A stretch of 62,642 nt of DNA from Nitrospira sp. bin75 (lineage in GTDB: Bacteria > Nitrospirota > Nitrospiria > Nitrospirales > UBA8639). The position numbers were made by a program, and so were the translations under genes. The notes beneath the pieces were generated by a model, which saw only the letters and a list, made by a program, of their open reading frames with translations, did no database searches and was not told the origin of the DNA. Numbering within the stretch: the first letter of the stretch is position 1; each line of letters opens with the position of its first letter. The stretch covers positions 1-62,642 of the forward strand of contig MPMZ01000011.1 of the NCBI GenBank assembly GCA_002238765.1, read 5' to 3'. Below are positions 132 through 50,607 of this stretch, piece after piece.

Positions 132-2048
132 TTGCAGAAAGATATTCAAGAGACGATATCGCTTCAGTCCTATATTCGAACGGCCATCCATAGTCGATTT
201 TTACATAAGGCAAAACCAAAACTTATATGGATTTACGTAACGAACAATACTATATGGTCTGTCCCGGATATTGAGCGCGCGGAAGACGGCAAAATTGAGG
301 TTATAACGGAAAACGAACTTCAGTACTTTGAGACCTTTGTGAAGCACATGGGACCTGCTGCAAAGTACCAAATACTCGGTGAGTTCCTGAAGGGTCAGAA
401 AGTTCCGGGTCTAGCGAACGTGAGGTTGCCCGCTATCCGAGGAGAAATAGGCGGTGAAAAATTTTACAGCTTCGTCTCGACACCACGTAATTTGCTGAAG
501 ATTGCGTTTATTAATCACCAAGCACTTAATCACCCCGATGGGCGCCCAGCCTATCAGAGAATGATCTCGGCGTCGCGTATCAAGGAGATCGGTGAATTCA
601 TTATGAAGGGTGGGTTTTTCCCGACTAATATTCTGGTGAATTTCTCAGACGCACCCAGATTTGACCTCATCTCCAATCGGGAAAATACCGATTCGAGAAT
701 TAAGTTCGGCTGGCTCACGCTGCCTTCGAAGTATCGGTCCGCGTGGATTATTGATGGTCAGCATAGATTATACGGATTCTCTCGCCTAACAGATGCATAT
801 CTCGACCAAAGTCTTTTTGTCCTGGCGTTCGAGAACATGAACGTGCAGAAGGAAGCCGACTTATTCGTCACGATCAACCACAAGCAAAAAAACGTGCCCA
901 AAAGTCTACTAGTCAGCTTGCTTGCCGATATTCGGATGGGTAGTGGCGATCCTTCAACGGCATTATTAGCGCGAGCGTCAGGTGTCGTGCGGAAGCTAAA
1001 CATAGAAAAATCGAGCCCATTGGTTCGACGTTTTGCCACGCCGGGCGTGCCGCCTGAACCATCGCAAAACCTAACAATTTCCGAAACAGTGAACGGCTTG
1101 AGACGATCCGGCCTTATCGGCAAGCTTTCGGGCAAGACGCTAGCACCTGGACCGCTAATGGCCGCGACCGATGAAGAGACAGTGGACCGTGCGGCTAGTG
1201 TGCTGGGGGCTTACTTCGAAAAAGTCCGTGAAGCCAATCCAAAACGTTGGGAAGGTGGACGTGGTGACTTTATTGCTACAAACCCCGGTATACGCGCACA
1301 TTTGTCGATAATCGGGGAAGTCGTTTCCTATCTATCGTACAGACAATCGCTTGATTTCGAGTTAATGACGCCAGATAAGTTTTCAAGTCATATATCTGCA
1401 TTTTGCCAGCCTCTATTCGATTTCATCAGGACGGCCCCGGACGATGTGATCAAGGCGAAGTTTTCCCGTCGCTTCGGGGAAGGCGGGGTGAAAGAATACA
1501 CGTACTATCTGATGGAGATCCTAACTCAGGAGCACCACGATTTCGGTACCGAAGAGTTCCAAACATGGGCGCAACAGAGAGATTCGGAGAAGATCGACGA
1601 CGTGAATCAGTTTCTAATGAAACTCGCCGAACGCTTGACGAATTTTGTGATCGACACGCTGAAGCAGGTGCATGGTATCCATCGACTACCAAGCGACGAA
1701 CCCGCTTTTTGGGAGATTGGTGTTGAGAGCGATAGCATCCGCAAGAAAGCCTTTGAAAAACAACAAAAGGATAGGAGCCGACGTAAACCAAAGGAGGCGT
1801 ATCTCGACATAGTAGACCTTCCGGAAATCGTAAAGCAGAAAAATAATTGGCATCATTTCGAGCATGTTTTCAAAAATCCGAGACCAAATGAACGGTCCGG
1901 GCAAAAATACTACATGGGCTGGGTGAACACTTTTAACGACCTACGGAACATTGCGGCGCACAAAAATCAGCTCAAGACCTATTCCGATGAGGATCTGGAG
2001 TTTGTCGATTGGTTGCGCACAGAAGTATCTCCGAAAGTTCCAGAATGA
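132..2048 (+). CDS. DGQHR-domain protein with C-terminal HEPN-like motif, 5' end cut by an IS
   Basis: About 638 residues from a TTG at 132, which is only the first possible start after the IS end. The DGQHR signature lies at about residues 208-212, in the context SAWIIDGQHRLYGFS. DGQHR proteins include DndB and relatives, linked to DNA modification and defence islands. The N-terminal part (about 1-130) resembles the second half of the nuclease-like domain that often precedes DGQHR, so its catalytic half is probably missing. Near the C-terminus RNIAAH (about 605-610) fits the R-x4-H motif of HEPN domains. The stop overlaps the start of the next gene as ATGA, so the two are translationally coupled. 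Codon use is more AT-rich than in the core genes. Probably a truncated, possibly inactive gene. Confidence 0.7.
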   Translation: MQKDIQETISLQSYIRTAIHSRFLHKAKPKLIWIYVTNNTIWSVPDIERAEDGKIEVITENELQYFETFVKHMGPAAKYQILGEFLKGQKVPGLANVRLPAIRGEIGGEKFYSFVSTPRNLLKIAFINHQALNHPDGRPAYQRMISASRIKEIGEFIMKGGFFPTNILVNFSDAPRFDLISNRENTDSRIKFGWLTLPSKYRSAWIIDGQHRLYGFSRLTDAYLDQSLFVLAFENMNVQKEADLFVTINHKQKNVPKSLLVSLLADIRMGSGDPSTALLARASGVVRKLNIEKSSPLVRRFATPGVPPEPSQNLTISETVNGLRRSGLIGKLSGKTLAPGPLMAATDEETVDRAASVLGAYFEKVREANPKRWEGGRGDFIATNPGIRAHLSIIGEVVSYLSYRQSLDFELMTPDKFSSHISAFCQPLFDFIRTAPDDVIKAKFSRRFGEGGVKEYTYYLMEILTQEHHDFGTEEFQTWAQQRDSEKIDDVNQFLMKLAERLTNFVIDTLKQVHGIHRLPSDEPAFWEIGVESDSIRKKAFEKQQKDRSRRKPKEAYLDIVDLPEIVKQKNNWHHFEHVFKNPRPNERSGQKYYMGWVNTFNDLRNIAAHKNQLKTYSDEDLEFVDWLRTEVSPKVPE

Positions 2049-2851
2049 CTCAGCCACCCCTGAAACCTTTTCTCAGATGGGCCGGCGGAAAGCGGTGGCT
2101 ATTTGAGAGCGGTCAGCTTTCCTTGCCAAATTTCAAGGGTCGATACATCGAACCTTTTCTGGGTGGTGGTGCAGTTTTTTTCGAAGTCCAACCGACAAAT
2201 GCATTACTCAGCGATGCCAATGGGCGGCTGATTGAGCTCTACACCGTGGTTCGCGACGAATGGGAGAAGTTTGAGCGACTCCTCAGGCGTCACGCGGCCA
2301 TGCATTCGAAAGCCTATTACTATGAAATACGGTTAAAGCGTTTCCGCAGTCCGGTGAAGCGCGCCGCGCAATTGATGTACCTCAATCGCGTCTGCTGGAA
2401 CGGCCTATATCGAGAGAACAAGGAAGGCCAGTTCAACGTCCCGATCGGCACCAAACAAAAGGTAATTTTCCCTGATGATGATTTTGAGGCATGGTCAAAG
2501 GCCTTGGAGGGTACAACGCTCGTGCAACAGGATTTTGAGATTGCCATTGATACTGCGAGGCGCGGTGATTTTCTGTTCATCGATCCTCCCTACACGGTGC
2601 GGCACAACATGAACGGTTTCGTTAGGTATAACCAGGATATCTTCGCCTGGGGTGACCAGATTAGGCTTCGCGATGCCTTGGGTCGTGCCGTCAATCGTGG
2701 TGCGAGATTTGCCATGACAAACGCGGATCATAAGAGTGTGCGAGGGCTGTACATTGGCTTCGGTCAGCATACTCAGCTATCCAGATCCAGCGTCATAGCC
2801 GGCAATTCATTTTATCGTTCACTGTCTACTGAATTGTTGATTACAAAATAG
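2045..2851 (+). CDS. D12-class adenine-specific DNA methyltransferase (Dam-like)
   Basis: A 268-residue protein starting at the ATG of an ATGA overlap with the DGQHR gene; an in-frame upstream start at 2009 would overlap that gene more and is less likely. It should transfer a methyl group from S-adenosylmethionine to N6 of adenine in a short DNA target. Visible motifs are FLRWAGGK near the N-terminus (SAM binding), YIEPFLGGGAVFF, and the catalytic DPPY at about residues 180-183. Length and motif order fit the Dam/M.DpnII group. The coupling to a DGQHR protein suggests modification or defence rather than mismatch repair. No intact restriction gene is next to it, but a decayed convergent remnant follows. 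Confidence 0.85.
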   Translation: MTQPPLKPFLRWAGGKRWLFESGQLSLPNFKGRYIEPFLGGGAVFFEVQPTNALLSDANGRLIELYTVVRDEWEKFERLLRRHAAMHSKAYYYEIRLKRFRSPVKRAAQLMYLNRVCWNGLYRENKEGQFNVPIGTKQKVIFPDDDFEAWSKALEGTTLVQQDFEIAIDTARRGDFLFIDPPYTVRHNMNGFVRYNQDIFAWGDQIRLRDALGRAVNRGARFAMTNADHKSVRGLYIGFGQHTQLSRSSVIAGNSFYRSLSTELLITK

Positions 2852-3531: not shown

Positions 3532-3664
3532 GAGCGCACCTCCCAAACGTAGCGGCTCACCATACACAAGGCTCCTCCCGTGGTCAATATCCGTAGGGTT
3601 CACCACTCTTCAATGACATTTGTCGGGGACAGGCTTTGGTACGCAGGTTAACGGACAAGGGTTT

Positions 3665-3701
3665 TCCTCCCCTTTGTAAGGGGAGGGTAGGTGGGGTAGA
3701 G
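3665..3701 (+). repeat. Family A hairpin repeat
   Basis: CCCCTTTGTAAGGGG forms a perfect stem with a TGT loop and is followed by the family's GTAGGTGGGGTAGAGC tail. One of about 14 copies in the window. Confidence 0.7.
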
Positions 3702-3740
3702 CCCGCTGAGCAACGGGAAGTTGCCGTTCTGTCCAAAGAC

Positions 3741-14047: not shown

Positions 14048-15256
14048 ATGAGACTGGATGATGCAGAGTTGGAAAGAATGATGAGTCAGGGTGAGAGTTT
14101 CCGCGTTGAATACAAGGAATCGCTGGACGGCAGCGCGTCGGTAGGCATCCAAGAGGCGGTTTGCGCATTTGCGAATGACTTGTCCGGTTCAGGTCAACCC
14201 GGTGTTGTTTTCGTTGGCGTTAAGAACAACGGTGAGCCGATCCGAATCGGCATTACCGACCAAATGTTGATTCAACTGAGCAGCATCAAGACGGACGGCA
14301 ACATCGTGCCCCCGCCTTCCATGCTGGTGGAAAAACGGACACTGAAAGGTGCGGATGTCGCGGTCATCACCGTGTTGCCTTCGGATTCCCCGCCTGTCCG
14401 ATACAAAGGCGACATTCACGTACGAATCAGCCCTCGAAAGGGAATTGCGACCGTGCAGGATGAACGCATTCTAAACGAGAAGCGGCGTGCTCACACGCTT
14501 CCGTTCGATATTCAACCCGTCCCTGGAGCGACGGTCTCCGACCTCAGTGTTCGCCGGTTTGACGAGGAATACCTTCCCAAGGCATTTAGCGCAGAGACCT
14601 TGGAAGCCAACGAGCGAAGCACAAATCAGCGCCTTGCCACGACCAAGATGATCGCCTCCGCGGAAGATCAGACGGCTACCGTACTTGGCCTTCTGGTGCT
14701 GGGCAAACAACCGCGAGACGTGATTCCCAATTCCTATATCCAGTTTCTGCGTATCGATGGGTCGGAATTATCGGATCCTATCGTCGACGATGAAACCATA
14801 GATGGAACGATTTTGGAGATATTGGGGCGCATCGACGACAAACTCAGAGCGCACATCAGTACGGGTGTTGACCTGACCGGTTCGGACAAGGAGCAGCGCA
14901 GATCCACCTACCCCCTCGCGGCGCTCCAACAGCTCATGCGCAATGCGGTGATGCACCGGGCCTATGAGGCCACAAATGCGCCCGTCCGAGTCACGTGGTT
15001 CAACGACCGCATCGAAATCCACAACCCGGGCGGCGCCTATGGAACCGTGACCAGGGAGAATTTCGGTCATCCCGGCGTGACCGACTATCGGAATCCAAAT
15101 TTGGCAGAGGCCATGAAGGTGATGGGGTATGTCCAACGGTTCGGTGTCGGTATCGCGACAGCCAAAAAGGAGTTGGAGAAAAATGGACATCCTGAACCAG
15201 AATTCGTCGTCGAAGACGCATTCGTACAGGTGACCATCCGTGGGCGCTCATCATGA
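14048..15256 (+). CDS. AlbA_2 (Schlafen-type) domain protein with C-terminal ATPase domain
   Basis: A 402-residue protein. The N-terminal AlbA_2 domain has ESFRVEYKESLDG and a GVVFVGVKNNGEPIRIGITD stretch, typical of Schlafen/AlbA_2 putative DNA-binding domains. The middle ends in LQQLMRNAVMHRAYEATNAP, and the C-terminus has IEIHNPGGAYG and GVGIATAKKELEKNGHPEPE, the pattern of the HATPase_c_4 module. Such proteins occur in accessory and defence loci. The stop overlaps the ParA-like gene as ATGA, so the two are coupled. A paralogue of the same architecture lies at 40042-41244. Confidence 0.75.
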   Translation: MRLDDAELERMMSQGESFRVEYKESLDGSASVGIQEAVCAFANDLSGSGQPGVVFVGVKNNGEPIRIGITDQMLIQLSSIKTDGNIVPPPSMLVEKRTLKGADVAVITVLPSDSPPVRYKGDIHVRISPRKGIATVQDERILNEKRRAHTLPFDIQPVPGATVSDLSVRRFDEEYLPKAFSAETLEANERSTNQRLATTKMIASAEDQTATVLGLLVLGKQPRDVIPNSYIQFLRIDGSELSDPIVDDETIDGTILEILGRIDDKLRAHISTGVDLTGSDKEQRRSTYPLAALQQLMRNAVMHRAYEATNAPVRVTWFNDRIEIHNPGGAYGTVTRENFGHPGVTDYRNPNLAEAMKVMGYVQRFGVGIATAKKELEKNGHPEPEFVVEDAFVQVTIRGRSS

Positions 15257-30302: not shown

Positions 30303-30346
30303 TCCTTCTTCCCCTCCTTTGTAAGGAAGGGTGAGGGGAGGTAGAG
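30303..30346 (+). repeat. Family A repeat downstream of the porin gene
   Basis: CCCCTCCTTTGTAAGGAAGG hairpin and the GAGGGGAGGTAGAG tail, between the porin stop and its terminator. Confidence 0.7.
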
Positions 30347-34214: not shown

Positions 34215-34472
34215 ATGGGTCAAGTGAACTTCCGAATGACAGACGAACGTCTGGCACTCATTGATCGGGCGGCTGCGATTCGAGGCGTCACGCGCACCGA
34301 GTTCGTGCTCAGATCGAGTGAGGCGGCGGCGATCGAGACGTTGAACGAACGCCCCGTCATTGCGCTTGATGACGAGGCTTACGAGGCCTTTGTTGCCGCG
34401 CTCGATGCGCCGGTCCAACCGAACGACCGCTTGAAAGAACGGTTTGCCCGCCGGCCGCTGTGGGAACGATAA
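34215..34472 (+). CDS. tacA: DUF1778 antitoxin (TacA-like)
   Basis: An 85-residue protein starting MGQVNFRMTDERLALIDRAA, a ribbon-helix-helix DNA-binding N-terminus, followed by the flexible toxin-binding tail (IALDDEAYEAFVAALDAPVQ). GGAGGAGG lies 5-8 bases upstream. It neutralises the GNAT toxin encoded next and represses the operon. The stop overlaps the toxin start by 13 bp. Confidence 0.88.
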   Translation: MGQVNFRMTDERLALIDRAAAIRGVTRTEFVLRSSEAAAIETLNERPVIALDDEAYEAFVAALDAPVQPNDRLKERFARRPLWER

Positions 34473-34990
34473 TCCCGGGTCGAGCCCGGGGCAAGCCTGA
34501 TACTCCTGAGCCGCTAGGCCCACGTCATGACGTCTCGCAGTTCGACTCCGGAATCGACAGCCTCAATACGTGGCTACAACGTAAGGCCAGGCTGAACGAA
34601 GCCAAGGGTGGCGCACGGACGTACGTCGTCTGTGACGGCGACCGGGTGATCGCGTTCTACAGCCTTGCCGCCAGTTCCGTGGAAAGGCGACGCATCTCCT
34701 CGCGCGTTGGCAGGAACATGCCCGAACCGATGCCGGTGATCCTGTTGGGACAACTGGCTGTGGACGTGAACTATCAGGGAGGCGGCTTGGGATCAGACCT
34801 GTTGATTGATGCAGGGAAGAGAGCGTTGGCGGCGGCTGATGTGGTTGGTGCGCGCGCTATCGTTGTCCAAGCGTTCAACGAAGAGGTCAAGACGTTCTAC
34901 GAGCAGTTCGGCTTCTTGCCATTCTCGGATCGCGAACCACTCATGTTGCTCCTTCGGATTTCCGAACTGAAGGCGGTGCTTCAGGCTTAG
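34460..34990 (+). CDS. tacT: GNAT-family tRNA-acetylating toxin (TacT-like)
   Basis: A 176-residue GNAT acetyltransferase. PLGPRHDVSQFDSGIDSLNT is the standard start of TacT-type toxins, and VILLGQLAVDVNYQGGGLGS is the acetyl-CoA binding motif (the Q-x-x-G-x-G loop reads QGGGLG). Such toxins acetylate aminoacyl-tRNA. The GTG start lies inside the antitoxin end. Odd: codons 6-16 contain a family E repeat (GGGTCGAGCCCGGGGCAAGC) that adds about 12 residues in frame (PGRARGKPDTPE) before the conserved PLGPRHD. Confidence 0.85.
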   Translation: MGTIIPGRARGKPDTPEPLGPRHDVSQFDSGIDSLNTWLQRKARLNEAKGGARTYVVCDGDRVIAFYSLAASSVERRRISSRVGRNMPEPMPVILLGQLAVDVNYQGGGLGSDLLIDAGKRALAAADVVGARAIVVQAFNEEVKTFYEQFGFLPFSDREPLMLLLRISELKAVLQA

Positions 34991-37549: not shown

Positions 37550-37720
37550 TCCCTCCCCTTTGTAAGGGGAGGTCAGGTGGGGTAGAGTCCGGCCTTCGGA
37601 TGACTGCAAATGCCTCTACCTCCCCTACCCCTCCTTACAAAGGAGGGGAATAGATGCCTCTACCTCCCAACTTTTCCCTCTTCGGAAAAAGTTCCCGTCT
37701 TTACAAAGGAGGGGAAGGAA
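37550..37720. repeat. Three family A repeats in a row
   Basis: One + copy (37550-37588), one - copy (37611-37650) and one long - variant (37654-37716). The middle one, CCCCTCCTTAC-AAAGGAGGGG, is the intact form used to define the nested insertion at 3766. Confidence 0.7.
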
Positions 37721-38731: not shown

Positions 38732-38956
38732 CTATTCAAGAAATCCCTGAAACTCTTCGACCGTCAATCCCGCTTTTCGGATTGGGCTGCGAAGGAGGCC
38801 GGGGCCCAACTCTCGATGGAGAGGTACCGTTAAGACAACAGCCATGCCTTCTTTGATGAGTGTGACGTGACTTCCGCGTTGGCGGTCCTGAATCCACCCG
38901 GCCTTCTTGAGAACTCGGATTGCATCCTCGCCGGAGCAGACCGGGAGTTTGGTCAC
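38732..38956 (-). CDS. hicA: HicA-family mRNA interferase toxin
   Basis: A 74-residue protein: KLPVCSGEDAIRVLKKAGWI, then QDRQRGSHVTLIKEG with the catalytic His in GSH, and VVLTVPLHRELGPGLLRSPI. This is the double-stranded RNA-binding-like HicA fold that cleaves mRNA. The start overlaps the hicB stop as ATGA. The order hicB-hicA is the reverse of the classical order. Confidence 0.9.
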   Translation of the reverse strand: MTKLPVCSGEDAIRVLKKAGWIQDRQRGSHVTLIKEGMAVVLTVPLHRELGPGLLRSPIRKAGLTVEEFQGFLE

Positions 38957-39162
38957 GCCACTCCTACTTCAATTTCCCTGACTTCGACGTGATCGGGCAA
39001 ACCTTGGGCCCGGCGGGTTTCGAGACTGGCCAGAATGGCTTCTTCAATATTAGCTAATGCTTCTTCGCGGGTTTGTCCCTGAGAGACGCAACCGGGAAGG
39101 GCCGGACAATCGACGACGTAATACCCGCCTTCGTCCTGTTCGATTGTGACGAGAAATCGCAT
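38953..39162 (-). CDS. hicB: HicB-family antitoxin
   Basis: A 69-residue protein from the ATG at 39162, with AAGGAGAAG just upstream. MRFLVTIEQDEGGYYVVDCP and ALPGCVSQGQTREEALANIE are the partial RNase H-like HicB domain. There is no C-terminal DNA-binding domain, as in the short HicB group. It neutralises HicA. Confidence 0.9.
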   Translation of the reverse strand: MRFLVTIEQDEGGYYVVDCPALPGCVSQGQTREEALANIEEAILASLETRRAQGLPDHVEVREIEVGVA

Positions 39163-39313
39163 GGTCTTCTCCTTTGCAGTAGGCCTTCTAGCATAACTCC
39201 ATCGTAGGCAGGGCGACAAGCCGGTGAACGGGCCTGTAATAGGATGATGAAAAAGACAGGGCGCGCGCTGTGACCCAGGTTTTGGCCCGCCAATTACTGA
39301 GAGAGGATTGCGT

Positions 39314-39811
39314 CTAGCGGTAATTGACGAACTGCAGGTCGATGCCGAAGTCTTCCTGCTTCAGAAAACCGATGACGGCCTGCAGTTCGTCTTTGTTCTT
39401 GCTCTGCACGCGCACCTGGTCTCCTTGAATCTGCGCCTGCGCCTTGAACTTTTTCTCCTTCAGCCGTTTCACGATGGCCTTGGCTTTGTCTTCGACGATC
39501 CCGCTTTGCACCGTGACGTTCTGCCGGACGGCTCCGCCAAGGGCCTGTTCCACCTTGCCGTAGTCGAGGGCTTTCAACGACACGCTACGTTTCACGCATT
39601 TTCCCTTGAGGATGTCGATGACCGCCTTGAGTTTGTAGTCGTCGTCCGCCACGATCTCCAGGACGTGCTCTTTTTCCTTGAGCGTGACCCTGGATTGTGA
39701 CCCTTTGAAATCGAAGCGTTGCCCGATTTCTTTCATGGTTTGATCAACCGCGTTCTTGACTTCCTGCATGTCCACCGTGGACGTCACGTCAAACGAATAC
39801 GAATCCGCCAT
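39314..39811 (-). CDS. yajQ: YajQ-family nucleotide-binding protein
   Basis: A 165-residue protein beginning MADSYSFDVTSTVDMQEVKN, with RFDFKGSQSRVTLKEKE and KFKAQAQIQGDQVRVQSKNK later, the UPF0234/YajQ signature. Some members bind cyclic di-GMP and act in signalling; others bind nucleic acid. It is cytoplasmic. It is next to hicBA but separated by about 150 bp. Confidence 0.92.
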   Translation of the reverse strand: MADSYSFDVTSTVDMQEVKNAVDQTMKEIGQRFDFKGSQSRVTLKEKEHVLEIVADDDYKLKAVIDILKGKCVKRSVSLKALDYGKVEQALGGAVRQNVTVQSGIVEDKAKAIVKRLKEKKFKAQAQIQGDQVRVQSKNKDELQAVIGFLKQEDFGIDLQFVNYR

Positions 39812-40041: not shown

Positions 40042-41244
40042 TTACTGTTTCTTCCATAGCGTCACCTTGAAATGATCTTCGGTCGCTTCAAAATCCGGCT
40101 CTCTTTCGTTGTGTTGCTGCATTAATGGAATGACCTTTCGGCGAATGCCTATACCCTGATCTTCAACGTAGCCGTAATCTCTAAAAATCCTGACGGACGA
40201 TGGATTGCGTTGTAATTGCGCGCCGCTCTTGATTCTTTCGGTTGTCATACCATTCGGCAGAGCTCCCGGGCTGATTATTTCCATGCGATTATCGTAGACG
40301 ACTACGCGTACATAATTTTGTTTTGTCCAATCTCTGTGAATAAAGGCATTAATCAAAAGCTCTCTTATGGCCTCAAACGGATAATCCCAAACCCGTCTGC
40401 GACTCATTCCTTGTAAAGTTTCATTACTGACATACGGTTGAACAAGTGTACTGACTCTCTCATGCAGAGCCGGTTCAATGGGATCATTAGCACCGCCGCT
40501 TCCTCGGCGTTCCAGCAAAGGTCCGTCCAATACTCTGTCAAATTTTGTGTTGTAATCCTTGTCATTCCCTTCGAAAACAGAAAGCCTTACACCGGCTTGT
40601 GGCAACCTCAACTGGGGTTTTTTCGCAAATAACGCATAAGCAAAATAGCTACAAGCAAGGGGTCTGACGTCGTCGACCAAAAGACTGTGGTTAACCATCA
40701 TTTCCTGCATATCCTCGTCCGGAGATTGGATCAGGATATCTCGAAAATATTCCTTGTAACGATGTTCATCCAAATCTGAAATTGAAGATCCGTGCACGGG
40801 AAATTTTTCCGCTGATAGCAGGCCGCCCAAATCAAACAATCGCGCCTGTTGTTCACGCCCCGCCAGTTGTGAGGTGTTGCCGTATCGGACATAGATATCT
40901 TGGCGGTCGTTGTATTTGAGGACATAGGGTTTACTGTTACCTTGAGGAATTTTCACGACGGCCACGCGCTTCCCTTCAACAACGATCTCCTCGTAATCCG
41001 GTAAGATAAAGGGATGAACATGCCGACCGATGACCGTATCCATTAGCCACTCTTGAAGATTGTTCCGCTGAATGCCACTAATGCTGCCGTCATCCTCGAC
41101 ACCAACTAAAACGATACCGCCATTCATGTTGGCAAAAGCAACGACTTCTTTGGCAAATTTTTCTGGGCGCTCATCATCACGCTTAAACTCCAGCTTTGCG
41201 CCTTCAAGCTGATTGGTTAATTCCAGCAGATCACCGATTAACAT
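40042..41244 (-). CDS. AlbA_2 domain protein with HATPase-like C-terminus, partner of the TrlF-like gene
   Basis: A 400-residue protein. The N-terminal domain has GAKLEFKRDDERPEKFAKEV and ANMNGGIVLVGVEDDGSISG, the AlbA_2 pattern. AIRELLINAFIHRDWTKQNY and MEIISPGALPNGMTTERIKS in the C-terminal third mark the HATPase_c_4 module, and DQGIGIRRKVIPLMQQHNER the end. It lies 15 bp after the TrlF-like gene, so they are one unit. Its base composition is clearly more AT-rich than that of neighbouring core genes, which suggests transfer. A paralogue lies at 14048-15256. Confidence 0.75.
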   Translation of the reverse strand: MLIGDLLELTNQLEGAKLEFKRDDERPEKFAKEVVAFANMNGGIVLVGVEDDGSISGIQRNNLQEWLMDTVIGRHVHPFILPDYEEIVVEGKRVAVVKIPQGNSKPYVLKYNDRQDIYVRYGNTSQLAGREQQARLFDLGGLLSAEKFPVHGSSISDLDEHRYKEYFRDILIQSPDEDMQEMMVNHSLLVDDVRPLACSYFAYALFAKKPQLRLPQAGVRLSVFEGNDKDYNTKFDRVLDGPLLERRGSGGANDPIEPALHERVSTLVQPYVSNETLQGMSRRRVWDYPFEAIRELLINAFIHRDWTKQNYVRVVVYDNRMEIISPGALPNGMTTERIKSGAQLQRNPSSVRIFRDYGYVEDQGIGIRRKVIPLMQQHNEREPDFEATEDHFKVTLWKKQ

Positions 41245-41259
41245 GGGAAACCGTTTCTA

Positions 41260-43929
41260 TTAGAAACCATATTTATTCTTACGCATATCAAAGGCTTCTC
41301 TGCCACCTTCCAAAATTGATGCAGCTTGTTCGCGTATTTCTGATTTGTCGATGGAACCTGCATTCGCAATTTTGCCTTTGTCTTTCCTGCTCTTTAATAC
41401 CGCGATTAACTCAGCGTCACCGAAGACAGGTATATTGGCATTGTGAGTGGCAAATAAAAACTGGCGGTTGGTTTTGTGGTACCTTAAATCCTGCACGATG
41501 CGTTCAGCTATGAAAGCATTATCCAGATGCTCTTCTGGTTGATCTATAATCAAGGGGGCGTCTCGGCTTAATAGCAAGAGATTCAATATTGCAGTACACT
41601 TTTGTCCGGTTGAAAGGTCTTCTAGTGGTACGAAGTGTTCATCCGCATCGTCATGTGCAGTATTAAGTTGGATTTCCACGCTATCCTTTAATTCGATCTC
41701 TTCCAGTTGAAGCCTTTCTTCCAAGCTCAATCCCAATAATTTGTCGACAGTACCTGAAGTCAACCCCTTTTCTTTATACTTAGCCAAGAAGGCCGTCTTA
41801 TCTTTGTTTCTTATCCACTTCGACCACTCCAATAAATCCAAATCTCCTTCCAGTTGCCTTAACCACTGAATTTTGGAACTTCCAATTCCATCAATAGCAC
41901 GCAAGAATGACTCAAGTTGCTCCAAATTCCCTGCGCGCTTGATGTCAATTTTTAGTTTGCCGACGAGATTCTTGTTCAGTTTTTCTATTGCCTGACTCAT
42001 TGATTCGAATCGAGCAAAGGCGGTATCGCGATATTCTTTCAATACTTCTTTTCTCTTGTTGTCAGCATCACGGCCAATAAGCTTTTGTTTTTCGTGGGTT
42101 GTTTTGTTCTTTCGAATGTTTACCAATTTGGCAATAATGTTTTTATATTCCGCCCCCAACGCCCTACCGCTTTTTCCGGCATGATCAGGCAATTGTGCAA
42201 TTGCTTGATTCAGTTCATCAAGAATTTCCCGGGAGTGACTTTGCCAGGCCGAATGTATGGAATCGTAGTCTGATTTGGCTTGGTTATAGCGATTAACAAT
42301 ATTGCCAACTAATTGATTCAAATCGCTTTGAAGGGTTTCAAAAATCTTTCTTGCTCTTAGTATCGATGCCTTGTTCGGTAATTGATCAATATCATCTCGT
42401 TGCAGAAATAACAGATCAAAAATTTCCTGATAGCTGTTCGACCATTGTAAAATGGCTTCAAATTGTCCTGCGATTCTCGCTTCAATTTCTCTTTCTTGTT
42501 CGAGCAATTGGGCATTTTTCAGTTTATTTGCTATTCCCAAATTTTCAAACTGTTTCACTTTTTCGTCCAAAACCGGTTCTTGCGCGACTACTTCATCAAT
42601 TCGTTCAAACTCCTTATGGGCTTCAACAATCTTTTTGCGACTCAACTCCAAACGACGCTTTATTTCATCCATTCTTCTGTCAAATTGACCGCTGTCTTGG
42701 AGGAAACAATTTATCAAATTCAGCTTGGCATCCTCATCCTTTTCCAGTGCAAGAATTTCATTCTGACCAAGTAGCTCAATATCGGGCAGGATGTCTCTAG
42801 GGGTCAGGTGAGAAATGTCACCTTGTTGGTTTTCTACGACAGGCTGCTCGCCATAGCGCCTGCTGATGCGATAGACTTGTCCTTGCTGGGCTTTTGAGAG
42901 TACTTCCAAGGTGATTTGCGAATCGCCTAAATTTTTTTTGCGAAGAGCCTCTACACCTCTGTCATCTCCTCCACGAATTGATAGGTTTAGAACATAGCGA
43001 ATACTTTCTATCAAGGTGGATTTACCTGTGCCTCGACCACCAATAACAGCATTTAGATTTTTGGAAAAAGCTAAGTCGTGGCTGGTAAAAAACCCTGCTC
43101 CTCGCCACTGTATAGAATTGATGACCGAATAGGGATTATCGGGAGTCTGATGAATAAGCCGAATTCGTGATTCAGGATCAAAAAAAGCCTGCCTGAATGC
43201 TGAAAAATCAGGCTGGATCATTTTAATCAAACAAAAAGCTGAAAGATCTGATAGCGTTTCTGGACGTTTTATGTCTTTGGCATTGATTATCGCGATAGGC
43301 TTTTTTCTCCTATAATCGTGATTTTTATTTCGAATAATTTTTTGGTATTTATCCGGTAAGTCTTCTATCGGACCGGGAATCTGTCCGGCTCTGACCAATT
43401 CTTCTTTTTTCCACAATTGAACATAGTTTCCGCCACCGCTATCCAGCTTTAGTAGGCCATTGTTTCCGGTTATATGCGCAGCGTACCAAAAGCCGTCTTG
43501 ATGAGTTATCACCTTATTTGCGATTTGTTCGCAGCTTAATGAAGATGGATGGGTTGGTTCTTGAGCAAGCTTAGTGCTGTTTTCTCCCATCAATTGTCCA
43601 AGATGCTGATTGAGGTCTGCTAATAAATGATCTTCGGGGTAGAGGCAGACCATATGAATTTTTTCAGAACTGGTAATCTCAAATCCTGGAAACACGGTGA
43701 CGCCGTTCTGTCTCAATAGATTACGTAACCCTTCTGAGTCTTCAACTTTTCCATGATCTGCAAGCCCCACAACTTCGATACGATTGTCCTGGCACTGCTG
43801 CAAAATTTGTCGGTTGTAGTCTGCTTCTTGGAGAGTTGTTTCTCCCTGATACTGGGCATAGCTAAAGGGATTGACCTGCAATGCGCATCTGTAGAAGCGA
43901 GACCCTAGATATTGAATTTCGGTACTCAT
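41260..43929 (-). CDS. TrlF-family protein: PHP domain fused to an SMC/Rad50-like ATPase
   Basis: An 889-residue protein. The first 250 residues resemble a PHP domain: VGLADHG and FPGFEITSSEKIHMVCLYPE fit the second and third motifs, but the first motif reads CALQVN where classical PHP enzymes have an H-x-H pair. Then comes an ABC/SMC ATPase: Walker A IGGRGTGKST with Lys303, a long coiled coil (about 430-720), signature LEDLSTGQKC and Walker B LIIDQPEEHLDN. Such proteins act on DNA or phosphate esters and are found in accessory loci. It has low G+C and is followed by the AlbA_2 gene. A two-gene defence system is a reasonable hypothesis, not proof. Confidence 0.75.
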   Translation of the reverse strand: MSTEIQYLGSRFYRCALQVNPFSYAQYQGETTLQEADYNRQILQQCQDNRIEVVGLADHGKVEDSEGLRNLLRQNGVTVFPGFEITSSEKIHMVCLYPEDHLLADLNQHLGQLMGENSTKLAQEPTHPSSLSCEQIANKVITHQDGFWYAAHITGNNGLLKLDSGGGNYVQLWKKEELVRAGQIPGPIEDLPDKYQKIIRNKNHDYRRKKPIAIINAKDIKRPETLSDLSAFCLIKMIQPDFSAFRQAFFDPESRIRLIHQTPDNPYSVINSIQWRGAGFFTSHDLAFSKNLNAVIGGRGTGKSTLIESIRYVLNLSIRGGDDRGVEALRKKNLGDSQITLEVLSKAQQGQVYRISRRYGEQPVVENQQGDISHLTPRDILPDIELLGQNEILALEKDEDAKLNLINCFLQDSGQFDRRMDEIKRRLELSRKKIVEAHKEFERIDEVVAQEPVLDEKVKQFENLGIANKLKNAQLLEQEREIEARIAGQFEAILQWSNSYQEIFDLLFLQRDDIDQLPNKASILRARKIFETLQSDLNQLVGNIVNRYNQAKSDYDSIHSAWQSHSREILDELNQAIAQLPDHAGKSGRALGAEYKNIIAKLVNIRKNKTTHEKQKLIGRDADNKRKEVLKEYRDTAFARFESMSQAIEKLNKNLVGKLKIDIKRAGNLEQLESFLRAIDGIGSSKIQWLRQLEGDLDLLEWSKWIRNKDKTAFLAKYKEKGLTSGTVDKLLGLSLEERLQLEEIELKDSVEIQLNTAHDDADEHFVPLEDLSTGQKCTAILNLLLLSRDAPLIIDQPEEHLDNAFIAERIVQDLRYHKTNRQFLFATHNANIPVFGDAELIAVLKSRKDKGKIANAGSIDKSEIREQAASILEGGREAFDMRKNKYGF

Positions 43930-44109
43930 AAATTTATCTCCATCACCTTCAAAAACCAGCTCACCACCTTGCTAACAGATCTCGATAGTCATCTTGAATG
44001 CTTTAATTTCGTGAGGTGCGGGTCGTACGTATTATACCATATCGCAGCCACGATTTTATCTATCGTGTCCTGTAGACGTCGTTTCCGGAGCCTAAGCAGG
44101 GCATGAGTC

Positions 44110-46062
44110 CTAACAACACTTTCCATCCGGCATCCGAATGCCGTCGCCGTCGAGAATTTCCGTGGTGGCATAGGGTTGTTTCAGGACCAGGTGCCGGTAC
44201 CATTTCATTGCGCTTTCGGTCAGGACCACGAGTGCCAGGACGGCGACCAAGCCGACCAGCGCCGCATTCAGCGTCATCGTGACGCGCGCCACCGGGTCCG
44301 CGGCGGTTCGCGCCCGGTCCAGAAAGATCCACCACAGGTCATGACAGCCCGTCAAGGTGACGATGCCCACGAACACCATCGGGACGGCCGTGACCCACAG
44401 GTAGCGGGCTTTGCCCATTTTGATGAACAGGGTCGTGCCGATACAGAGCGCCAGGGTTCCCAATAACTGGTTGGCGGCGCCGAACATGGGCCAGACCGTG
44501 GAAATCGTTCCCGTGGCGATGAGCCATCCCCAGGCCCCGACCACGAGCGCGCTCGACAGGACGACGCCGGGCCACCAATTGATCCGGCGAAGCGGAGCAT
44601 AGACGTGCCCGCCCATTTCCTGAACGAGGTATCGCGCCACGCGCGTACCCGCGTCGATGGTCGTCAGGATAAACAGGGCTTCGAACAGGAGCGCGAATTG
44701 ATACCAATAGGCCATGAGCCCGGCCATCCCCGGCAGGGCGGAAAAAATCCAGGCCATGCCCACGGCCAACGAGACCGCGCCTCCCGGCCGGCCCGAGACG
44801 TCCACTTCGACCAGTTGCGAGAGCGTGTGAATGTTTTGAACGGGGAACCCCATGGCCGCCAGCGCCTCGGCCGACAGGCGCGTGTTGATCGCAAAATAAT
44901 CGCCCGGGATGAGCAGGGACGCCGAGATCAACGCGACCACTCCGACAAAGCTTTCCAGCAACATGGCGCCATAGCCCACCATGGCCTGGGATTCGCGGGC
45001 GATCATTTTCGGCGTGGTGCCCGATGACACGAGCGAATGGAATCCCGAGATGGCGCCGCAGGCGATCGTGATGAACAGAAACGGAAACAGGGGGCCGGGG
45101 ATAATCGGGCCTCCTCCGGAAATGAAGCCGGTGACTGCCGGCATGTGCAGGTCGGGTGCCAGAATGATCACGCCGACCGCCAGCAGCCCGATGACCCCGA
45201 GTTTCATGAACGTGGAGAGGTAGTCTCGCGGCACCAACAGCATCCACATCGGCAACACCGAGGCCAGAAATCCGTATCCGGCCAACAGCCAGACCAGCGT
45301 GGTCCGGTCATGGGTAAACCAGAGCGCCACGTCCGATTGCGCCACCACTTTGCCCAGGGCCACGGACAGCACGAGCAGCACGATGCCGATGAGGGACATT
45401 TCTCCCACGCGTCCGGGGCGAACGTCGTGATGGTACCAGCCCATGAGCAAGGCGATGGGGATGGTCATGGCAATGGTAAACGTGCCCCAGGGATTGGCCA
45501 CGAGCGCGTTGACCACGGCCAGTCCCAGACCGGCCAAGGCCACGATCACGATGAACAACACGGCCACGGCCGTGGCCGTGCCGGTGATCCATCCGATCTC
45601 CGCGCGGGCGATTTCCGGCAGGGACCGGCCATTGCGACGCAGGGAGCCGACCAGGATGACGAAATCCTGTACCGCGCCCGCCAGCACGGCCCCGATCACA
45701 ATCCAGAGAAACCCCGGCAAAAACCCGAACTGTGCCGCCAGGACCGGACCCAATAACGGCCCGGCGCCGGCAATGGCGGCGAAATGGTGTCCGAAGAGCA
45801 CGTATTTGTTCGCGGGATAATAATTCGTGCCGTCTTCCAGTCGAAAGGCCGGAGTCCGGCGCTCGTCATCGAGCTGCATGACGCGCCGGCTTAAGAATCC
45901 TCCGTAAAACCGGTAGGCCAGCACGTAAAAACAGCCGGCCGCCGTCACCAGCCAGAGCCCGTTGACTTTTTCCTCAGGGTTCAACAGGCCGGTGACGAAG
46001 CCGAAGGACACGGCGCACAGGAGGGAGACGAGAATCCACGCGGTCGTCTTCACGGTTTTCAT
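44110..46062 (-). CDS. cstA: Carbon starvation protein CstA (peptide/pyruvate transporter family)
   Basis: A 650-residue protein with about 16-18 membrane segments. LDDERRTPAFRLEDGTNYYP and HHFAAIAGAGPLLGPVLAAQ are the CstA signatures, followed by conserved stretches such as ISGFHSLVSSGTTPKMIARE and MAWIFSALPGMAGLMAYWYQ. It imports peptides or pyruvate at the inner membrane under carbon limitation. The C-terminal five-helix part is also present. The next gene upstream on the same strand (46154-46588) may be co-transcribed, 91 bp away. Confidence 0.95.
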   Translation of the reverse strand: MKTVKTTAWILVSLLCAVSFGFVTGLLNPEEKVNGLWLVTAAGCFYVLAYRFYGGFLSRRVMQLDDERRTPAFRLEDGTNYYPANKYVLFGHHFAAIAGAGPLLGPVLAAQFGFLPGFLWIVIGAVLAGAVQDFVILVGSLRRNGRSLPEIARAEIGWITGTATAVAVLFIVIVALAGLGLAVVNALVANPWGTFTIAMTIPIALLMGWYHHDVRPGRVGEMSLIGIVLLVLSVALGKVVAQSDVALWFTHDRTTLVWLLAGYGFLASVLPMWMLLVPRDYLSTFMKLGVIGLLAVGVIILAPDLHMPAVTGFISGGGPIIPGPLFPFLFITIACGAISGFHSLVSSGTTPKMIARESQAMVGYGAMLLESFVGVVALISASLLIPGDYFAINTRLSAEALAAMGFPVQNIHTLSQLVEVDVSGRPGGAVSLAVGMAWIFSALPGMAGLMAYWYQFALLFEALFILTTIDAGTRVARYLVQEMGGHVYAPLRRINWWPGVVLSSALVVGAWGWLIATGTISTVWPMFGAANQLLGTLALCIGTTLFIKMGKARYLWVTAVPMVFVGIVTLTGCHDLWWIFLDRARTAADPVARVTMTLNAALVGLVAVLALVVLTESAMKWYRHLVLKQPYATTEILDGDGIRMPDGKCC

Positions 46063-50456: not shown

Positions 50457-50591
50457 ACCCTCTCCCCTGGCGGGAGAGGGCTGGGGTGAGGGGGAAAAGA
50501 AAAAGACGTGGTCTTGGCCGTAACCGTGGCGTGCGACCTTGCACAACGCATCACCCTCACCTTAATCCTCTCCCATCAAGGGAGAGGAAAC
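50457..50591. repeat. Two family B repeats in opposite orientation upstream of prfA
   Basis: CTCTCCCCTGGCGGGAGAGG (50461-50480) with the GGGTGAGGG tail, and its reverse form CCCTCACCTTAATCCTCTCC-CATCAAGGGAGAGG (50558-50591). The two can pair to a long stem. The second one ends in GGGAGAGGAAACGAGAGA, which is a possible ribosome site for prfA. Confidence 0.65.
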
Positions 50592-50607
50592 GAGAGAATG
50601 AACGCCT

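Follow-up and report, generated by a model that had tools for sequence, protein, structure and literature searches.

A trlF-trlG-Type Gene Pair with a Remodelled PHP Site in Nitrospira: a Candidate Abortive-Infection Module

Introduction

The temperature-restriction locus trlF-trlG-trlR of Photorhabdus was reported in 2020 (PMC7554251), with trlF annotated as a histidinol phosphatase gene and TrlG assigned an AlbA_2 domain (residues 14-128) and a HATPase_c_4 domain (residues 298-365). According to that report, deletion of the operon allowed Photorhabdus to grow at 36°C, and stable tolerant isolates carried mutations in trlG, none being seen in trlF in the part of the report available to us. 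Relief of the arrest through mutation of trlG is counted here as a sign of TrlG toxicity. The Yersinia ruckeri plasmid TrlF is named there as part of a syntenic trl set. The literature search returned the trlF-trlG locus in PMC7554251 only, and Krishnan et al. 2020 (ABC ATPases) or a bioRxiv paper on bacterial Schlafen proteins may also describe the pair.

Several other systems share parts of this architecture. The related PHP-NTPase Ppl acts in defence as an exonuclease whose activity is gated by 3' ends and by the depletion of NTPs, as summarized in the accessible part of a review. A Schlafen RNase with a minimal histidine kinase, associated with BREX and allied systems across at least 1017 taxa, is described in PMC12839542; neither PHP nor histidinol occurs in its main text as available to us, and thus a TrlF partner is not named there. 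In SLFN13, residues E205, E210, and D248 are required for cleavage.

In this study, a trlF-trlG-type pair was analyzed in a 62,642-nt stretch of Nitrospira sp. bin75 (contig MPMZ01000011.1), hereafter the window. On the basis of sequence, structure models, and analogy, we put at about 50% the probability that it is an abortive-infection pair, in which a TrlF ATPase sensor would control a TrlG Schlafen-like RNase effector within a mobile conflict module of the trlF-trlG type. The pair type itself is known; a clade combining a remodelled PHP site with an intact Schlafen-like partner is defined here.

Results and Discussion

The trl Locus of the Window

The trlF gene (41260-43929, minus strand) encodes an 889-amino-acid PHP-SMC/Rad50-type ATPase, assigned by its NF045780 score and structure model, and trlG (40042-41244, minus strand) encodes a 400-amino-acid Schlafen-type protein with AlbA_2 and HATPase_c_4 domains. 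The range given in the initial annotation, 41260-43929, located trlF properly and excluded the partner gene. The spacing of 15 bp on one strand that it had reported was exact (41245-41259, minus strand, from the trlF stop to the trlG start), and this spacer is retained in four trlF-less relatives. The TrlF C-terminal residues KYGF with the stop codon (41260-41274, minus strand) persist as a scar in three relatives. A conserved leader containing TATAAT (44028-44064, minus strand), a putative promoter, also precedes trlG in the trlF-less genomes G173 and G356 and is partially present in G199 and G187.

The pair is flanked by genes that we take to be yajQ (39314-39811, minus strand) and a cstA-like permease gene (44110-46062, minus strand), both of which are core genes syntenic across the genus. 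As had been claimed, the pair is more AT-rich than these flanks: the GC content is 41.6% for trlF and 46.1% for trlG, and GC3 is 0.40 and 0.47, respectively, versus 0.76 for yajQ and 0.81 for cstA. The accessory zone with toxin-antitoxin modules described initially is real as far as the modules are concerned (a TacA-like/GNAT pair at 34215-34990 and a HicAB pair at 38732-39219), but it does not extend to the immediate flanks. No BREX, R-M, or Wadjet genes flank the window pair directly, and no ORF corresponding to trlR (79 aa) was found in the 180 bp separating cstA and trlF.

Elsewhere in the window, repeats of about 40 bases lie at about 3662-3704, 30305-30346, 37609-37655, and 50552-50593; they are dispersed through the genus loci, and one sits in the trlG-cstA gap of G356. 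A gene for a DndB-domain protein (132-2851, plus strand) overlaps a D12-class adenine methyltransferase gene.

Comparison with Photorhabdus trl

On sequence grounds, the window pair is homologous to Photorhabdus trlF-trlG, which it resembles in gene order (trlG directly after trlF, in the same orientation), in the TrlF family, and in the AlbA_2 and HATPase_c_4 domains of TrlG, as far as the published description available to us extends. The published TrlG was matched to locus L184 of Photorhabdus genome G395 (P. namnaonensis), in which 13/13 published wild-type residues agree and the Pfam ranges (14-128 and 298-364) are close to the published ones. The P. luminescens locus L168 was rejected as the published TRL, since only 4/13 mutated residues were found in L163, L168, and L176. 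The Yersinia TrlG has 2/13 of them. Genome G395 holds both a Q-x-N pair (L156; the Q-x-N motif is described below) and the TRL-type TrlG (L184).

Five TrlG residues mutated in Photorhabdus (V35, A36, P318, N335, and G354) correspond to identical residues V35, A36, P330, N347, and G366 in the window, of which N347 and G366 are invariant wherever a letter is present in the alignment. The L184 TrlG is, however, only 30% identical to the window TrlG, and the TrlF of the Yersinia ruckeri plasmid is 24% identical to the window TrlF and carries H-x-H; the window pair therefore represents a distinct clade of the trl kind. Photorhabdus trl further differs, in its available description, by a Q at the second Schlafen position, the presence of trlR, and the phenotype studied, which is temperature. 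The initial annotation knew of no assigned role for this exact pair; PMC7554251, in the part available, provides one, though for another clade and for temperature restriction rather than phage defence. No phage assay of the window's clade was found in print.

TrlF and Its Altered PHP Motif

The window TrlF scored 490.1 bits against NCBIfam NF045780 over residues 9-888 (cut-off 350) and is thus a TrlF family member. Pfam detected AAA_23/AAA_21/SMC_N, and no Pfam PHP domain was found at E<=0.1. The structure model (mean pLDDT 86.6, 49-sequence alignment) revealed the PHP fold: by VIA-align, residues 11-264 matched EndoQ 5zb8 (Z 18.4, 223 aligned, rmsd 3.6) and residues 10-260 matched the PHP phosphoesterase 2anu (Z 16.1, 188 aligned, rmsd 2.8), which places the domain at residues 10-264 (43138-43902, minus strand). 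The remainder of the model aligns with SMC/Rad50 heads. It comprises the Walker A motif GGRGTGKST (residues 297-305; 43015-43041, minus strand), a long coiled coil seen as helices of the model (residues about 413-654; 41968-42693, minus strand), and the ABC signature and Walker B region (residues 772-804; 41518-41616, minus strand). The domain reading of the initial annotation, a PHP-like domain joined to an SMC/Rad50-type ATPase with a long coiled coil, is borne out by these results, which include the structure prediction of the PHP region that it had proposed.

The H-x-H of PHP motif I is absent. Instead, Q18-V19-N20 occurs within CALQVN at residues 15-20 (43870-43887, minus strand), in place of D-x-H-x-H, exactly the altered metal motif noted initially. 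This alteration is not peculiar to the window protein but a clade signature, present in 78/80 of the closest genome loci (best 80 of at least 552 GTDB relatives) and in 14/34 first-round TrlF rows. H59, H152, and D219 never vary among the 94 Q-x-N rows, and E84 and H92 are kept in 92/94 and 93/94, respectively. The last PHP motif is also changed in Q-x-N TrlF, and S-D-x-H is found in several H-x-H rows. Judging from these residues, the PHP pocket of Q-x-N TrlF is conserved, not lost; both decay of the motif and chance juxtaposition of the two genes were ruled out by conservation. Because the metal site is remodelled, the PHP head probably serves to bind or sense nucleotide or DNA.

By family profiles, the only basis of this comparison, TrlF resembles Ppl (NF042955) in combining PHP and an ABC-type ATPase within one protein, with 169 bits, far under the cut-off of 1000. 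Ppl differs further in being a single gene with an active PHP exonuclease, according to the available review text.

TrlG and the Schlafen Triad

In accordance with the partner domains named in the initial annotation, Pfam identified SLFN_AlbA_2 (40864-41205, minus strand) and the GHKL-like HATPase_c_4 (40057-40311, minus strand) in the window TrlG. The best structural match of its model (pLDDT 77.4) was 3lmm, followed by SAMD9/Schlafen domains and GHKL kinases. The Foldseek E-values were 1.4e-4 for the SAMD9 tRNase domain and 8.9e-4 for SLFN14, with low TM-scores (0.18 of query) for the AlbA_2 matches. A weak phmmer alignment (E 0.53) pairs residues E14, E19, and D51 with E205, E210, and D248, the catalytic residues of SLFN13, with the SLFN13 residue offset derived by hand from the E-x4-E pattern. 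All three are invariant in 15/15 aligned TrlGs, and a Schlafen-type E/E/D triad is thus present in the window TrlG. The effector architecture is the same as that of the Schlafen RNase in PMC12839542, which differs, in the text available, by an added wHTH.

The middle of TrlG also hits two Argonaute-linked PADLOC models (E 1.4e-13 and 6.2e-13). A second AlbA_2/HATPase_c_4 gene of the window (14048-15256, plus strand), 27% identical to trlG, has no TrlF beside it and lies directly before a gene that is presumably ParA-like.

The triad was compared between the two kinds of pairs. In Q-x-N pairs, E14 and E19 are kept in 66/66 (aligned letters) and D51 also in 64; L152 and L164, which have gaps, are outside the 66. 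In H-x-H pairs, E19 is replaced by Q or D in 8/15 and kept in 7/15, and the published TRL type has Q at this position. The pairs counted are related by descent, and the figures are no more than suggestive. Given the Q or D at triad position 2 in 8/15 H-x-H pairs and the Q in TRL, RNase activity cannot be a property of TrlG in general. A strict reciprocal rule, by which one site is broken and the other intact, was rejected as a general law, since 7/15 H-x-H pairs keep the second Schlafen glutamate. Quite tentatively, the cutting role may have moved between the proteins, with the Q-x-N TrlF head as sensor and TrlG as sole RNase in one clade, and the head as nuclease beside a catalytically damaged TrlG in the H-x-H/TRL type. 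If so, temperature restriction in Photorhabdus would amount to an abortive-infection system misfiring, and the trlG genes that stand without trlF in the Nitrospira genus would be former immune effectors turned free-standing host regulators.

Another explanation makes TrlF the nuclease effector, in the manner of Ppl, with its remodelled PHP site still binding metal and degrading DNA ends while TrlG regulates. The exonuclease described for Ppl in the review, the closeness of the PHP fold to EndoQ, the near-complete retention of the four pocket residues H59, E84, H152, and D219, and the existence of standalone Q-x-N TrlFs all agree with it. Yet both motif I histidines are replaced, the last motif is changed too, and the first two catalytic glutamates of TrlG are kept throughout the Q-x-N pairs, so that we regard this explanation as unlikely.

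Pairing across Genomes

In the phylum sample, the window TrlF had matches (E<=1e-20) in 18/395 genomes at 20 places, the window included, and a TrlG-type ORF followed TrlF directly on the same strand at 17/20. Of the unpaired places, G137 has a TrlF without the PHP part, and the contigs of G302 and G366 end 638 and 539 bases, respectively, after the TrlF ORF. A search of GTDB contigs with TrlF alone returned no relative, whereas the query alignment A1 returned at least 552. Among the best 80 of these, a TrlG-type gene directly follows TrlF in 62, a count that takes in L156 and L175, whose trlG runs off the contig, and L164 and L171, where trlG is split over two frames. Three of the 18 unpaired loci (L118, L119, and L159) have less than 1 kb behind TrlF, which gives 62/77 testable loci paired and 15/77 with TrlF alone. 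TrlF matches were found in 94 plasmid records; of 14 examined, 3 were paired and 11 had no TrlG. Accordingly, given the unpaired genome and plasmid loci, Q-x-N TrlF may act alone.

On a 98-row TrlF tree, pairing as a label requires 10 changes versus a shuffled mean of 22.3, and TrlF and TrlG identities are correlated at r 0.87 over 65 Q-x-N loci, the highest of 500 permutations being 0.21. The Citrobacter pair had no match at the DNA level in E. coli genomes. Matches were found in 5/50,697 records of the phage search, and viral contigs gave 4 loci, 1 of them paired. The pair is a widespread mobile two-gene module.

A further Q-x-N trlF-trlG pair occurs in G173 and G356 (L037, 5674-11059; L038); that of L037 is preceded by an N6 methylase that has an HSDR_N domain.

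Defence Genes beside the Pair

On a Citrobacter plasmid the pair lies within a type I R-M operon (hsdM-hsdS-trlF-trlG-hsdR), and on a Vibrio plasmid it lies between BREX genes (pglX-trlF-trlG-pglZ-brxL); a Klebsiella plasmid carries TrlF alone after brxL. For the best 80 of at least 552 GTDB loci, simple ORF calls (minimum 100 aa) gave an immediate upstream neighbour at 73 loci and a downstream one at 74; PglX models matched up to 10/73 of the upstream genes, and PglZ models up to 9/74 of the downstream genes. The order PglX, pair, PglZ was found in at least L102, L105, and L108, and other immediate neighbours in this set of 80 were type I, IIG, and III R-M genes and JetB/JetC (Wadjet). The R-M, BREX, and Wadjet models gave 0 matches to 74 control genes drawn from one genus, that of the window, rather than matched by species, with one trlG among them; the control genes matched seven models in all, two of which were Argonaute-linked and also match TrlG.

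The two surveys answer the checks suggested in the initial annotation. The pair is conserved (17/20 phylum places, 62/80 closest GTDB loci, best 80 of at least 552), with strong co-occurrence rather than none, and it has BREX, R-M, and Wadjet genes among its immediate neighbours, its neighbourhood elsewhere being not consistently housekeeping. The designation as a candidate defence system gains from pairing, co-inheritance, and defence neighbours, but not from the core genes directly flanking the window pair. Anti-phage gene clusters are thereby connected with a locus whose one known phenotype was heat-dependent growth arrest.

These data, together with analogy to WonAB, PARIS, PrrC, and Ppl, led to the reading as an ATPase with a toxic effector. 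WonAB and PARIS, as far as the sources available describe them, likewise join an ATPase sensor to a nuclease hitting translation, and PrrC and PARIS-like modules are located in R-M or BREX loci; WonAB, PARIS, and PrrC have another ATPase subfamily and other nuclease folds and serve as analogies only. In the proposed abortive-infection mechanism, TrlF would sense a sign of infection, possibly DNA ends that are free or unusual, a shortage of nucleotides, or a blocked R-M/BREX system, and would then switch on TrlG through a presumed signal. The AlbA_2 domain of TrlG may cut tRNA or other RNA, as Schlafen/SAMD9 proteins do, with its own GHKL ATP-binding domain controlling the cutting, and growth would stop before the phage multiplies, if the system indeed acts against phages. 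In the window's clade, the Q-x-N head would bind or sense nucleotide or DNA and TrlG would supply the cut.

Loss of trlF in the Genus

Among 14 genomes of the genus, TrlG matches (E<=1e-100) were found in 8, and this TrlF in the window genome only; other TrlFs are present in G173, G356, and G229. Five species (G173, G356, G278, G199, and G187) have yajQ-trlG-cstA without trlF at the same site, and three of the five lack any TrlF match. The final KYGF codons, stop, and spacer are still in place in G356, G199, and G278, and G173 has a degraded version. Across 290,994 bases of ten genus loci, with both strands read, KYGF-stop is found 3 times, which equals the number of scars. In G187, a longer piece of the TrlF C-terminus survives with frame damage (profile E 2e-6, versus 1.3 for the best of 3000 control fragments). 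In G229, G081, G202, G065, and G179, yajQ adjoins cstA with no trl gene between. One genus thus offers the intact pair, a trlF remnant with trlG, and the empty site, which makes the roles of the two genes separately testable.

The trlF-less trlG genes have dN/dS of 0.08-0.13 at dS 0.23-0.41, near the values of flanking genes, and are under purifying selection. In the TrlG tree, the paired locus L100 branches outside the group of window and orphans, within which the window is sister to all five orphans; this fits one early trlF loss followed by further erosion. Separate acquisition or recombination of the window trlG is also possible, given that its silent-site distance from the orphans (dS 0.70-0.74) exceeds that of cstA (0.34-0.44) and that the window groups with the trl-free G081 and G229 in the yajQ and cstA tree (91/95, not starred).

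A toxin-antitoxin system with TrlF as obligate antitoxin of TrlG would account for the two-gene operon and for an arrest relieved by mutating TrlG, as reported in the available part of PMC7554251. Since five sister species lost trlF and kept an intact trlG under purifying selection (two of them, G173 and G356, have another trlF at a different location), the role of an obligate antitoxin does not hold for trlF. In the same partial account, moreover, the whole Photorhabdus operon was deletable and no trlF mutants were selected, and we consider such a system highly improbable.

The same retention in five species, three of them without any TrlF match, implies that TrlG must do something without TrlF, and orphan trlGs together with standalone TrlFs weigh against a strict obligate two-part machine. 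TrlG could accordingly be autonomous, as a growth regulator triggered by stress or as an RNA-binding ATPase, with TrlF an accessory that modulates it and phage defence secondary or absent. The temperature-induced arrest and lack of trlF suppressors in the accessible text of PMC7554251, and the trlG homologues of G244 and G340 that adjoin other genes, point the same way, but the strong pairing, the co-inheritance, and the insertion inside BREX and R-M operons do not; we hold this alternative to be rather doubtful, and the abortive-infection pair is retained as the preferred reading.

Two trlG homologues with 56-58% identity to the window trlG were seen in further loci. In L081 (5778-11690), an AAA_21 ATPase gene and a 195-aa ORF precede trlG and a ResIII helicase gene follows it, and in L080 (7506-9928), trlG is preceded by a 410-aa ORF without a Pfam match.
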